From Pseudomonadota bacterium (GTDB lineage Bacteria; Desulfobacterota; Syntrophorhabdia; Syntrophorhabdales; Syntrophorhabdaceae): DNA of 37,760 nucleotides. The translations under genes were made by a program, and so were the position numbers. Positions 14,203 to 28,802 of the stretch are shown piece after piece (position 1 is the first letter of the stretch; each line of letters opens with the position of its first letter). Location: the NCBI GenBank assembly GCA_026388255.1, contig JAPLKC010000090.1:1-37760 (forward strand), in the 5' to 3' direction. The notes below the pieces were generated by a model. The model had not been told where the DNA came from and did not search any database. It saw only the letters and a list, made by a program, of their open reading frames with translations.

Positions 14203-14985
14203 TCATGTTATCAGTTTAACAATGTCCTTATATGTCACGAACATAGTGAGAATAATAAACAATGTTATACCAATTAAATTGGCCATTTGATATATTTTTG
14301 GCGCCAGAGGTTTTTTTATAATGGATTCAACGAAGAGGAGGAACAACTGACCTCCATCCAGGGCCGGGAAGGGAAAAAGATTCATCACGCCAAGACTCAT
14401 GCTTAATGCCCCAGTGAAAAATAAGAGAGACAGTGCCCCTTTGGTTGCAGCTTTACCTGCCATGGCGGCTATGCCTACAGGTCCTGATAATCCTTCCATT
14501 GTACCGTTTCCGGAAAGGATGTTCAGAATAAAGAGGATGGTTCCCGATAGTATTTCATAAACAGTTTTAGTGCTTAGTAAAAGGGCATCTAAAAAAGAAA
14601 GGTTTTTGCCCATTATAAAAACAGGAATAAAAATGATACATGCAAAGGCGATATTACATAATGACCCTGCCGAAAAAATTAGTGTCCGACTCAAAAACGA
14701 GGTGTCCATCAATTCCTTGGCTTCATCATCGCCATCCTTTGAAAAACTTACAAATCCACCGAGAGGAAGTAGGCGCAAGGTAAATTCTGTTTCTTTGTGA
14801 CGGAAAAGCGTAATCAATCGTGGACTGAAAGGGAAGCCTACTGAAAACTCATAAACCTTGACCCCGGCTATCCTTGCAGCGATAAAATGACCGAATTCAT
14901 GAATAAGCACGACTGATGAAAATACGACGGCGAATGCGATGATTGAAACTATCAATGGTTTAAACCCCCATAATTTTTTATACAA
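14203..14985 (-). CDS. Site-2 protease family membrane metallopeptidase (M50), PDZ-less
   Basis: The 260-residue protein is an intramembrane zinc protease related to RseP/SpoIVFB. The zinc motif HEFGH is at 29-33 in the first membrane segment. The third ligand lies in NLFPFPALDGG (D210) in a later segment. Hydrophobic stretches at about 11-28, 102-124, 143-158, 186-203 and 236-255 suggest four to five membrane spans. RseP has about 450 residues and two PDZ domains; here only a short soluble segment (about 45-100) lies between the first spans and no PDZ domain is seen. The start appears to be a TTG at 14985, right after an in-frame stop and with no good ribosome binding site. The substrate is unknown. 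Confidence 0.82.
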   Translation of the reverse strand: MYKKLWGFKPLIVSIIAFAVVFSSVVLIHEFGHFIAARIAGVKVYEFSVGFPFSPRLITLFRHKETEFTLRLLPLGGFVSFSKDGDDEAKELMDTSFLSRTLIFSAGSLCNIAFACIIFIPVFIMGKNLSFLDALLLSTKTVYEILSGTILFILNILSGNGTMEGLSGPVGIAAMAGKAATKGALSLLFFTGALSMSLGVMNLFPFPALDGGQLFLLFVESIIKKPLAPKIYQMANLIGITLFIILTMFVTYKDIVKLIT

Positions 14986-25247: not shown

Positions 25248-26150
25248 ATGTATTTTATGATACTTAGGAAAAATATTTTTAAAATGGACGAAGAAGATTT
25301 TAATAGATTATCAATGAACAAGATCAAGCTTTTTTTGAGAAAAAGTTTTACCTCCATCACTATTATGGTAGTGCCACACTCAAAAATCAGGCCTTTAAGA
25401 ATCAAGGTGCCTGCAATCGCTTTGTTTTCGTGCCTTCTGCTTAGCATCATCGGTGCTGTTTATGTAGTATCCATAGGGGTTAATACCATAGAGTATTATG
25501 GGATGAGGAGAAAGCTTAATTATATTTCCTCGCAATTCAGTGAACTGAAAATCGTGATGTTTTCTCTCAAAAAGGCTGAGGCCGAGTTTTCAAAGCTTCT
25601 TTCTCTTAAATCCAAAAAAACCATTCTTGAAGAAGCGGACTTTGCAAATACCGGCGCCCTTAACATTGAGTTATTAAAAAAACAGGTTGATGAGACAATC
25701 CAATCTGTCTCAGAAATCAGAATATATATTGAGGAACAGAAAAATCTTTATCATGCAACTCCAACAGGATGGCCATTGAAGGGTACGATAAATTCAGGGT
25801 TTGGCCTTCGGGAACATCCTATTTACGGAAGAGATGCATCTCATTCAGGGATAGATATCGGTGCGTCCATCGGTACTCCGGTAAAAGCTACAGCAGACGG
25901 TATGGTAAGTTTTTCAAGCTGGCACAACGACAGCGGATATATAGTAGTGCTCGAACACGGACATGGCTTTACAACCGTTTATGCACACAACAAAGAAAAT
26001 CGTGTTAAGGTCGGTCAAAAGGTAAAACGGGGAGAAGTGGTTGGAGTTTCCGGCTCCACTGGCGCCACAACAGGTCCACACCTCCATTATGAGGTCTGGA
26101 AAAACAGAAGACCTATTAATCCAGCTTCGTTTTTAAAGGACATATCATGA
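25248..26150 (+). CDS. M23 family (LytM-type) membrane-anchored peptidase
   Basis: The 300-residue protein has a short cytoplasmic N-terminus, one membrane span (about 55-77), a helical periplasmic segment (about 85-165) and a C-terminal M23 domain. The active-site residues are complete: H199 and D203 (SHSGIDIG), H247 (VYAHN), and H278/H280 (GPHLHYE). Enzymes of this type cut peptide cross-links in peptidoglycan. Starts at 25248, 25257, 25284 or 25314 are possible; none has a strong ribosome binding site. The stop overlaps the first bactofilin ATG by 4 bases. Pairing of an M23 peptidase with a bactofilin is known (for example LmdC with BacA in stalked and budding bacteria), and the bactofilin localises the peptidase. 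Confidence 0.92.
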   Translation: MYFMILRKNIFKMDEEDFNRLSMNKIKLFLRKSFTSITIMVVPHSKIRPLRIKVPAIALFSCLLLSIIGAVYVVSIGVNTIEYYGMRRKLNYISSQFSELKIVMFSLKKAEAEFSKLLSLKSKKTILEEADFANTGALNIELLKKQVDETIQSVSEIRIYIEEQKNLYHATPTGWPLKGTINSGFGLREHPIYGRDASHSGIDIGASIGTPVKATADGMVSFSSWHNDSGYIVVLEHGHGFTTVYAHNKENRVKVGQKVKRGEVVGVSGSTGATTGPHLHYEVWKNRRPINPASFLKDIS

Positions 26151-26692
26151 TATTCAGAAAAAAAGAATCGTCGCTTGAAGTGATTATAGGAGCTGAATCC
26201 AGCATTAAAGGCGATCTTACCAGCAAAGGTATTGTCAGAATGGATGGGACAATCGAAGGAAGCATAAATGCGGACTGGTTGATAGTAGGCGAAACCGGTG
26301 CGATAAAGGGCGATGTCACTTTAAGAGGTATTGTGACAAATGGAAAAATAGAAGGAAACATAAAATCAAAAGAAACTGTAGAAATAAAATCCAAAGGCAT
26401 TGTAGAAGGGGATATTGATGCAGACTGGATAATGATAGGTGAGTCCGCGATGGTCAAAGGCGATGTTACTTTGAGAGCTATAATCATAAACGGAAATATA
26501 GAAGGAAACATACAATCAAAAGAAATAGTAAAGATAAAATCCAAAGGCATTGTAGAAGGGGATATTTATACACTAAAACTCGCAATATCTGAAGGCGCTA
26601 TTTTTGACGGCCGTTCTTGTATGCAAAATATCACAGACTCAGACAATAAGGATGTTTTGCCCTTTGAACGAAAGGCGAAGAAGTCTCTATAG
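26147..26692 (+). CDS. Bactofilin 1 (polymer-forming cytoskeletal protein, extended)
   Basis: The 181-residue protein starts with a short polar tail and then the bactofilin domain (DUF583), a right-handed beta helix recognised by repeated G-x-I-x-G-x-I turns such as KGDLTSKGIVRMDGTIEGSI. Typical bactofilins have 110-140 residues. This one is longer because a 50-residue block (DADW...IVEGD) occurs twice, about 74% identical by eye, which would add turns to the helix. It overlaps the M23 gene by 4 bases (ATGA), so the two are almost certainly co-translated. It is the most divergent of the four bactofilins here. Confidence 0.93.
   Translation: MIFRKKESSLEVIIGAESSIKGDLTSKGIVRMDGTIEGSINADWLIVGETGAIKGDVTLRGIVTNGKIEGNIKSKETVEIKSKGIVEGDIDADWIMIGESAMVKGDVTLRAIIINGNIEGNIQSKEIVKIKSKGIVEGDIYTLKLAISEGAIFDGRSCMQNITDSDNKDVLPFERKAKKSL
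26270..26569 (+). repeat. 150-bp in-frame tandem duplication inside bactofilin 1
   Basis: Bases 26270-26419 and 26420-26569 align at an exact 150-bp offset. GCGGACTGG (26270) matches GCAGACTGG (26420), GGCGATGTCAC matches GGCGATGTTAC, and CCAAAGGCATTGTAGAAGGG occurs identically at 26391-26410 and 26541-26560. Each unit encodes 50 residues of beta helix. The copies have diverged at scattered positions, so this is older than the array in bactofilin 2. Confidence 0.8.
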
Positions 26693-27037
26693 ATTAAAGG
26701 TTGTCTCATATATTAAAGTGTGTTTTATGAAAAATACCAATAGATTCAGTTCCTACAAAAATGGATATATCGGATATATGCGGCTTGAGTTACAGACTTG
26801 TTTATCAAAACATTCGGGATTCTTGTTTTTATTTGGCTTCTTTTATTGAAAAGACATAAATTATGGATAACACGATGATAGGTCTTTATTTCGCAACCTT
26901 CTATTTTGCAATACAAAATGTGCAACCCAATACTTTTGTGAATTTTTATGATAAGGTTAAGTTTAATAGCGATCAGGCTATATAGATTTTTTTGACACTG
27001 GTTTAGACCACAACAAACGGTTAAAAAGGAGGAAAAA
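26693..27037. other. Intergenic region between bactofilins 1 and 2
   Basis: The 345 bases are AT-rich with no credible gene. A short plus-strand frame (MKNTNRFSSYKNGYIGYMRL) lacks a ribosome binding site and family resemblance. GGATATAT occurs twice in tandem near 26763-26779. TATATA near 26979-26984 could be a -10 element for bactofilin 2, but its -35 is poor. The AAGGAGG of bactofilin 2 is at the right end. Confidence 0.4.
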
Positions 27038-27748
27038 ATGATAAACATTGCTCCTGGGGGCTCAGGTGACGGCGAAGAAAAGGTCACAACGGTAATTGCT
27101 GATGATTTAGAAATTCAGGGTACCATGAAATTCAAAAATTCTCTCATGATTAAAGGCATTCTCGAAGGAGAGATTATATCTGAGGGTTTGTTGATTGTTG
27201 GACCTACTGCAAAAGTTGCAGCCAAGATTACTACAAAGGACCTTATATCTCACGGTGAAATTCAAGGGGATGTTACTGCCAGCGATCGAGTTATGCTGAA
27301 AAGCACTTCATCCCATAATGGCAATATTACGACGCCATATATTGTGATAGAGAGCGGTTCTATCTTTAACGGATCCTGTATTATGAAGAGGGAAGAACCT
27401 GTTCAAATAGCGGATGTTGTTTTTACTGAGGCTATGGTTGAAAAAGAAACAGTATCCGAAGAAGAAATAACGGAAGAAACAGAAATGCAGATAACAGAGG
27501 AACAGATAACAGAGGAACAGATAACAGAGGAACAGATAACAGAGGAACAGATAACAGAGGAACAGATAACAGAGGAACAGATAACAGAGACTGTCTGGTC
27601 CACTACAGAGGAACAGATAACAGAGGAACAGATAACAGAGGAACAGATAACAGAGGAACAGATAACAGAGGAACAGATAACAGAGACTGTCTGGTCCACT
27701 GAGGACGAATATTCTGTGCCGAAACCACCCAAGGCGGAACTATTTTGA
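27038..27748 (+). CDS. Bactofilin 2 with long ITEEQ-repeat tail
   Basis: The 236-residue protein has a bactofilin domain at about 15-122 (VTTVIADDLEIQGTMKFKNS to NGSCIMKR), very similar to bactofilins 3 and 4. A 110-residue acidic C-terminal extension follows that the others lack. The tail holds six ITEEQ units (152-181), ITETVWST (182-189), TEEQ (190-193), four more ITEEQ units (194-213), a second ITETVWST (214-221) and a final EDEYSVPKPPKAELF. Such a Glu/Thr/Gln tail may be disordered or helical and could act as a spacer or docking arm; this is inference. The ATG has AAGGAGG upstream. No signal peptide or membrane span is present. Confidence 0.92.
   Translation: MINIAPGGSGDGEEKVTTVIADDLEIQGTMKFKNSLMIKGILEGEIISEGLLIVGPTAKVAAKITTKDLISHGEIQGDVTASDRVMLKSTSSHNGNITTPYIVIESGSIFNGSCIMKREEPVQIADVVFTEAMVEKETVSEEEITEETEMQITEEQITEEQITEEQITEEQITEEQITEEQITETVWSTTEEQITEEQITEEQITEEQITEEQITETVWSTEDEYSVPKPPKAELF
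27491..27700 (+). repeat. 15-bp coding minisatellite in two blocks
   Basis: The unit ATAACAGAGGAACAG is repeated six times without change (27491-27580). It is followed by a 24-base closing segment (27581-27604) containing ACTGTCTGGTCCACT. A truncated unit (27605-27616) and four perfect units (27617-27676) follow, then an identical copy of the 24-base segment (27677-27700). Perfect identity means recent expansion, and the 15-bp period always keeps the reading frame. Confidence 0.97.
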
Positions 27749-27833
27749 ATTTTGTAGTTCTTAAAACTTTTGTTATGTTTTTAAAAAAAACTAAGATAGA
27801 TTTTAATAATTTATCAAATCTAAGGAGGCAAAT

Positions 27834-28208
27834 ATGACCAACACAACTTCCAGCGTTTCTGACGTAGTTGAAAAAGATGTTACCACGATACTTGCTGATG
27901 ATTTAGAAGTTCAGGGTACAATAAAATTCAAAAGTTCTCTCATGATAAAAGGTGTTCTCGAAGGAGAGATCATATCGGAAGGGCTATTGATTGTTGGGTC
28001 TACTGCAAAAGTTAAAGCAACGATTACTACAAAAAACCTCATATCCTACGGTGAGATTCATGGGGATGTTACTGCGAGCGAGCAGGTTATACTGAAAAGC
28101 ACTGCAGTTCATAACGGTAATGTCACAACACGAAATATTGTGATTGAGAATGGTTCGGTTTTTAACGGTTCCTGTATGATGAAGGCCAGAGATATTAATC
28201 CTGTTTAA
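27834..28208 (+). CDS. Bactofilin 3
   Basis: This compact 124-residue bactofilin has a short N-terminal polar segment and then the beta-helix core (TTILADDLEVQGTIKFKSSL, LEGEIISEGLLIVGSTAKVK, HGDVTASEQVIL). It should polymerise into cytoplasmic or membrane-associated filaments without a nucleotide. About four of five residues are identical to bactofilin 4 and its core is also close to bactofilin 2. AAGGAGG lies before the ATG. The short charged C-terminus (KARDINPV) differs from its paralogues. Confidence 0.93.
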   Translation: MTNTTSSVSDVVEKDVTTILADDLEVQGTIKFKSSLMIKGVLEGEIISEGLLIVGSTAKVKATITTKNLISYGEIHGDVTASEQVILKSTAVHNGNVTTRNIVIENGSVFNGSCMMKARDINPV

Positions 28209-28430
28209 CGGGACTTTGCTTGGTTAGACACTTGTATGAGATACCATGGGAACATCAGCATAATATACAAAGGATTTCAGGGTTTTTAGAGAATGAAAAA
28301 GCATTTTCAGAATCCAATATGTTTTGTTTGGTATTGAGTAAATCAGGCAATGCTGAGATAATAATGAAGATGTGGATCACAACAATGACGTAAACTTGTT
28401 TCATAAATTTTAAAAAAAGGAGACTAAAAA

Positions 28431-28802
28431 ATGACAAACTCAGTTTCTAATACCTCTGATGTCGGCGAAGAAGGTGTTACCACGATACTTGCTGATGATT
28501 TAGAAATTCAGGGTACAATAAAATTCAAAAGTTCTCTCATGATAAAGGGTGTTCTCGAAGGAGAGATTGTATCGGAGGGGCTATTGATTGTTGGATCTAC
28601 TGCAAAAGTTAAAGCTACGATTACTACAAAAAACCTCATATCCCATGGTGAGATTCAGGGAGATGTTACTGCCAGCGAGCAGGCTATACTGAAAAGCACT
28701 GCAGTTCATAACGGCAACATTACAACACCAAATGTTGTAATTGAGAGCGGTTCGGTCTTTAACGGCTCTTGTATCATGAAGAGAGAGCCTGTAGGCGCTT
28801 AG
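28431..28802 (+). CDS. Bactofilin 4
   Basis: This 123-residue bactofilin is a close tandem paralogue of bactofilin 3. From VTTILADDLE to FNGSC it differs at only about ten positions. The differences cluster at the N-terminal 15 residues and the C-terminal tail (KREPVGA), the parts that usually decide localisation and partners. AAAGGAG precedes the ATG. A 222-base non-coding spacer separates it from bactofilin 3, so it may have its own promoter. Downstream is a weak stem GTAAAT-CGTT-ATTTAC (28902-28917) before the convergent rpoZ. Confidence 0.93.
   Translation: MTNSVSNTSDVGEEGVTTILADDLEIQGTIKFKSSLMIKGVLEGEIVSEGLLIVGSTAKVKATITTKNLISHGEIQGDVTASEQAILKSTAVHNGNITTPNVVIESGSVFNGSCIMKREPVGA

Follow-up and report, generated by a model that had tools for sequence, protein, structure and literature searches.

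Among the described systems, the closest to the locus reported here are LmdC–BacA and, beside it, Csd1–CcmA of Helicobacter pylori. LmdC of Rhodospirillum and Hyphomonas features a cytoplasmic β-hairpin located before the transmembrane (TM) helix; this hairpin binds the bactofilin, and BacA requires it to recruit LmdC (PMC10945521). In Myxococcus, the bactofilins BacNOP co-assemble, and the long C-terminal tail of BacP binds the client PadC (PMC5703909). The window analysed here (the whole stretch of DNA, 37,760 bp) contains an M23 peptidase gene followed by four bactofilin genes, bac1 to bac4. M23 and bac1 form a pair of the known lmdC–bacA module type, in agreement with the remark in a preliminary description of this DNA that bactofilin–M23 pairs are already known. 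On balance, the locus as a whole is probably an LmdC–BacA type wall-shaping module extended by family-specific extra filament subunits.

Architecture of the M23–bactofilin locus

The Pfam search assigned Peptidase_M23 (PF01551) to the ORF at 25248–26150 with an E-value of 1e-34, and Bactofilin (PF04519) to the four following ORFs with E-values from 7e-25 to 2e-35 (Table 1). All five ORFs lie on the + strand. Bac1–4 scored 87–121 bits, all above the curated cut-off of 27.9. The last 4 bp of the M23 gene are also the first of bac1 (ATGA), an overlap suggestive of translational coupling. The Pfam matches and the overlap confirm what had been read from the sequence previously, namely a LytM-type membrane peptidase overlapping a bactofilin gene and followed by three more bactofilins. 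The M23 ORF is open from 25248; since the M23 proteins of all relatives have their first residue at the corresponding position (MNKIK.., length 276–289 aa), the start is most likely at 25314 rather than at 25248.

Table 1. Features of the M23–bactofilin locus (positions in the window).
Feature	Position	Strand	Description	Evidence
LmdC-type M23 peptidase, 278 aa	25314..26150	+	N-terminal helix, cytoplasmic β-hairpin (residues 14–33), TM/coiled-coil helix, LytM domain with HxxxD, H, HxH	Pfam PF01551, alignment, AlphaFold2
bac1	26147..26692	+	MIFRKK membrane-targeting peptide and predicted nine-rung β-helix (three rungs duplicated)	Pfam, AlphaFold2, rung spacing
Spacer 5′ of bac2	26693..27037	+	Last ~140 bp conserved with two relatives, strong Shine–Dalgarno; possible separate promoter	DNA alignment
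bac2	27038..27748	+	No membrane-targeting peptide; 121-aa acidic C-terminal tail, net −35, end PKPPKAELF	Pfam, tail composition
ITEEQ repeat array of bac2	27488..27700	+	15-bp unit, perfect 96-bp tandem duplication; this genome only, missing from relatives’ bac2 tails	TRF
bac3	27834..28208	+	Short bactofilin without membrane-targeting peptide; C-terminal MKARDINPV (family-wide M[KR]A[KR]DI[TN])	Pfam, C-terminal tail comparison
bac4	28431..28802	+	Short, bac3 paralogue (core 91% aa), C-terminus MKREPVGA; orthologue in congener G001	Pfam, dS, site patterns

The genome (98% complete) was found by Pfam search to encode four bactofilins, all at the locus with M23, and no others; the search returned five bactofilin matches, as Bac1 was matched twice. 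Upstream of the array, the window contains ATP synthase genes, an IclR-type regulator and an EF-hand protein, and gmk and yicC are located downstream. A short RseP-like (site-2 protease) homologue, apparently lacking the PDZ region as judged by eye from the translation, was observed at 14203–14985. Two strong matches to MreB are present in the genome, so the M23–bactofilin module seems to be an accessory to the ordinary rod machinery.

In an alignment of 14 M23 sequences, the zinc ligands of the HxxxD, YAH and HxH motifs are invariant (H177, D181, H225, H256 and H258). The cytoplasmic segment T-x-x-T-I-x-x-V-P-H is kept in the aligned sequences as well, with T13, T16, I17, V20, P21 and H22 being invariant. 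The AlphaFold2 model of M23, of moderate confidence and with uncertain details (mean pLDDT 69, about 72–81 at the hairpin and the TM start), comprises a short helix, a β-hairpin at residues 14–33 (strands 14–19 and 28–33), a long TM/coiled-coil helix from residue 34 and the LytM domain. The M23 N-terminus, singled out earlier as the place to look for bactofilin contacts, features a bactofilin-binding architecture in this predicted structure. By strong analogy with LmdC–BacA, M23 would bind Bac1 via the N-terminal hairpin.

The N-terminus of Bac1, MIFRKK, meets the M-F/hydrophobic-x-K/R-K membrane-targeting pattern and is close to the consensus MFSKKKK (PMC12448750), while Bac2–4 begin with MIN or MTN.. 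and lack the motif. The core of Bac1 contains a 49-residue duplication, with aa 42–90 appearing again at 92–140. When Bac1 was modelled alone with AlphaFold2, one continuous β-helix was obtained (pLDDT 93–97 over residues 11–150, mean 86.7), and the turn spacing of 16, 17, 15, 18, 17, 15, 18 and 17 residues in the predicted structure corresponds to nine rungs instead of the usual six. A Foldseek search with this model pointed to the Thermus bactofilin 6rib (E 4e-3, prob 1.00) and also to BacA 2n3d, with no match at E ≤ 0.001. The “duplicated core” of the preliminary description is, hence, a real duplication, but one of only half a core, about 49 aa or three rungs.

The same duplication with the same junction is present in contig JAPLKD010000271 (L039/L076), where the dS of M23 relative to the window is 0.83. 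Bac1 of the congener G001 and of all relatives other than L039/L076 is six-rung, and a search with a profile that detects only close relatives gave the nine-rung form in just 2 of the 395 genomes sampled across the phylum. An origin of the duplication in an assembly error was rejected, since the diverged L039/L076 locus has the same junction and unit-specific substitutions are common to both. Within each long Bac1, the 3′ parts of the two units have been homogenised to identity. Contig L039/L076 belongs to a Lake Pavin metagenome-assembled genome (MAG) with its own different, genus-typical M23–bac1 on another contig (L097, G007:C47), and a transposase-like gene is located upstream of the window-like locus. 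In view of the second M23–bac1 locus and the transposase-like gene, the window-like locus may owe its place in this MAG to misbinning or horizontal transfer; in either case, the sequence is natural and independent.

Conservation and divergence among relatives

The preliminary description had made its proposal dependent on the gene order recurring in related genomes. A comparison within the family and order revealed such conservation: at each of the 31 further loci where an M23 gene was identified, bac1 comes immediately after it. No fewer than 15 of the 31 also have at least two additional bactofilin genes on their contig. Several relatives (G002, G005, G010, G012, G014 and G025), and several genera, possess M23–bac1 without extra bactofilins, so the basic module can do without them, and some genomes of the family and order sample have no bactofilin at all. 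The four-bactofilin version was found only in the window and in G001, the one sampled congener. As the M23–bac1 order is kept while the extras vary, the module can be described as conserved, with a variable number of extra subunits. In g4, g8 and g11, all 13 complete arrays have the short form ahead of the acidic-tailed one, and the tailed form precedes the short one in the window, G001 and contig L039.

The flanks of the array in G001 are the same as in the window (EF-hand and IclR genes upstream, gmk and yicC downstream). Across genera, the outer flanks differ (gmk–yicC, pyrR–pyrB, ligA, ATP synthase genes), and M23–bac1 stays paired. No conserved partner gene beside the array was found in the flanks of the loci compared. 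In g2 and g12 (L037, L043, L044 and L051), M23–bac1 is located directly upstream of ATP synthase genes; in the window, ATP synthase lies a few kb upstream of M23.

Bac2–4 belong to a class that forms one clade with a support of 100/100, separated by a long branch from the M23-linked class. Outside this family, no member of the Bac2–4 class was found at E ≤ 1e-30 (of 297 genomes from across the phylum, the 4 with matches belong to the family), and outside the lineage, a looser named scan turned up just two remote matches, with 31–37% identity. The named carriers are Syntrophorhabdus sp. bins and Deltaproteobacteria/Syntrophobacterales MAGs, which makes a Syntrophorhabdia-type bacterium the most likely source of the window. 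The M23-linked class of g1, g7 and g8 features a membrane-targeting-like N-terminus (MIFRKK, MFHKK, MFKK). In g4, M23-linked bactofilins have lost the leading Phe, and g4 and g8 members end in a basic-hydrophobic stretch, e.g., KKTLKRIFSFF. Such C-terminal ends (KKLFKAISIF, KKTLKRIFSFF) were observed in Bac1 of L077, L079 and L083–L086, and in some relatives the membrane anchor of Bac1 has possibly moved from the N- to the C-terminus.

An alignment of both classes indicates that the interface Phe matching F130 of Caulobacter BacA and F105 of Thermus is kept in all four bactofilins (F153 in Bac1). Mutation of F130 blocks BacA assembly in Caulobacter (PMC12448750). Since this residue, needed for BacA polymerisation, is kept, Bac2–4 are expected to form filaments.

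The Bac2 tail in G001 and G007 is 70 aa long, acidic (−12 and −15) and non-repetitive, with the same end W[ST]..E.Y..PK.PK.ELF, and five g8 members end alike (EEPKPGELL, EGEPKHGDLF). Because these tails share the end without ITEEQ repeats, the acidic tail with its end motif is regarded as conserved, and the repeats as a recent local expansion by slippage. The long repeat tail noted earlier does exist, with 10 ITEEQ units and the perfect 96-bp duplication, but it is not special in itself, as the array is recent and confined to this genome, and the acidic tail of the relatives is about 70 aa long and non-repetitive. The repeat tail as an ancient specialised module was rejected, since ITEEQ arrays are missing from the bac2 tails of relatives.

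Shared filament or separate scaffolds

In the proposed mechanism, Bac1 would be the membrane-anchored subunit, with MIFRKK tying the polymer to the inner membrane face. The Bac1 surface would hold the cytoplasmic β-hairpin of M23, so that cross-link cutting outside would be confined to filament sites. Bac2, Bac3 and Bac4 would most likely be built into that filament bundle too, facing the cytoplasm. By analogy with BacP–PadC of Myxococcus, the acidic tail of Bac2 with its end motif may serve as a docking arm for a client, and Bac3 and Bac4 may act as tail-less spacers setting the density of tails and anchors. A filament shared by Bac1 and Bac2–4 is suggested by linkage and by the precedents in Myxococcus, Bacillus and Rhodomicrobium, although the long core distance between the two classes counts against a mixed filament. 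A multi-component filament positioning wall cutting had been put forward in the preliminary description, and the scaffold features of that idea are present: all four bactofilins keep the polymerisation Phe, only Bac1 has the membrane peptide and the pair of acidic-tailed and short forms recurs. The mixed polymer itself is what we infer.

The main rival explanation, which we consider possible though rather unlikely, assumes two scaffolds. M23–Bac1 would shape the wall at the membrane, and Bac2–4 would assemble into cytoplasmic filaments of their own that serve a different purpose, such as chromosome or protein positioning, without a shared polymer. The lack of the membrane peptide in Bac2–4 and their deep separate clade are consistent with this, and so is the gap between bac1 and bac2. 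The gap is 345 bp long, and about 140 bp of it (window 26890–27037) are non-coding and conserved in two diverged relatives, according to the DNA alignment. The conserved block is possibly a promoter or leader of a separate bac2–4 unit; a scan of the spacer for sigma-70 promoters and terminators showed no excess over shuffles. With such a block before them, bac2–4 may be regulated and used separately, which counts against a shared scaffold. Moreover, the extra pair of G016 is about 3 kb away from M23–bac1, and lone genes of the Bac2–4 class occur at other sites in g4 genomes (L065, L066, L068 and L072). However, the extras are kept immediately 3′ of M23–bac1 in most array-bearing genera despite the changing outer neighbours, and in other organisms, the bactofilin paralogues that were tested co-assemble as a rule (PMC5703909; PMC10259793; PMC4627819).

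An extension of the shared-filament reading concerns the nine-rung Bac1. It could co-polymerise with six-rung partners, and the mixed subunit length would then determine how far apart the membrane anchors, the docking sites for M23 and the acidic tails lie, making up a bactofilin ruler with a defined register. We put this forward as a speculation with a low probability of being correct. The nine-rung Bac1 is, in any case, a natural test of whether bactofilin filaments accept subunits of unequal length.

The history of the bactofilin copies was assessed from substitution patterns. The dN values of about 0.02–0.06 for the orthologue pairs and the bac3/bac4 pair are low compared with dS (0.27–0.66), indicating that all bactofilin copies are maintained by purifying selection. 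Bac3 and Bac4, previously called near-identical, are paralogous short forms, but their identity is 81% aa overall and 91% in the core. A comparison of bac3/bac4 with the G001 counterparts revealed 13 sites of within-genome paralogue agreement, 6 of orthologue agreement and 2 crossed, and parts of the bac3/bac4 core have probably been exchanged between neighbours, i.e., by gene conversion. Conversion between bac2 and bac3 was unsupported (3 conversion-type versus 31 orthology-type sites). Short MTS-less bactofilins across genera (bac3/bac4 of the window and loci L036–L062) have a common C-terminal M[KR]A[KR]DI, yet a single clade is not recovered for their cores (p-AU about 1e-67, a value serving only as a guide, because the grouping was chosen with the sequences already known). 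This points either to homogenisation of the cores inside each lineage or to more than one origin of the short/tailed pair. Bac2–4 being unselected tandem duplicates, kept alike by gene conversion and only raising the filament-protein dose, would agree with the 13 species-specific versus 6 orthology-type sites, the core trees splitting the short forms despite matching C-termini and the recent expansion of the ITEEQ array, but it is improbable given that G001 has retained orthologues of bac2, bac3 and bac4 that differ in their C-termini (dS ~0.4–0.7, dN ~0.02–0.06) and that the short/acidic-tailed pairing recurs in several genera.

Comparison with known systems

The locus resembles LmdC–BacA of Hyphomonas neptunium and Rhodospirillum rubrum (PMC10945521) in the overlapping genes, the bitopic M23 peptidase and MTS-bearing bactofilin, the hairpin before the TM helix and the LytM domain. 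In contrast to LmdC–BacA, three additional MTS-less bactofilins are present here, and the predicted Bac1 has nine rungs, not six. Similar to BacNOP of Myxococcus xanthus (PMC5703909), the locus features clustered paralogous bactofilins, one of which has a long C-terminal tail. In Myxococcus, the paralogues co-assemble and the client docks at the tail. BacNOP, as described in PMC5703909, have no adjoining M23, however, and serve ParA/ParB positioning. The Bac2 tail is acidic and repetitive, and is likened to the BacP tail as a long C-terminal extension. Paralogous bactofilins are also found in Caulobacter (BacA/BacB), Bacillus (BacE/BacF) and Rhodomicrobium (BacA/B/C), where they interact or co-polymerise (PMC4627819, PMC10259793); these sets have two or three members, and that of Rhodomicrobium has no co-transcribed LytM-type peptidase.

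Each ingredient is known singly, both the bactofilin–M23 pair and the three-bactofilin heteropolymer with one long-tailed member. In the open-access literature, no description was found of their combination, of the MTS-less class specific to this family or of a nine-rung Bac1. The M23–bactofilin pair and the heteropolymer have been studied in different organisms and for different tasks, whereas here both occur in one conserved locus of an anaerobic lineage rich in uncultured members. The division of labour is visible in the sequence, with one anchored peptidase-linked subunit, one acidic-tailed subunit and one or two short ones, and such a clean division makes it testable whether filament composition tunes the sites of wall cutting.
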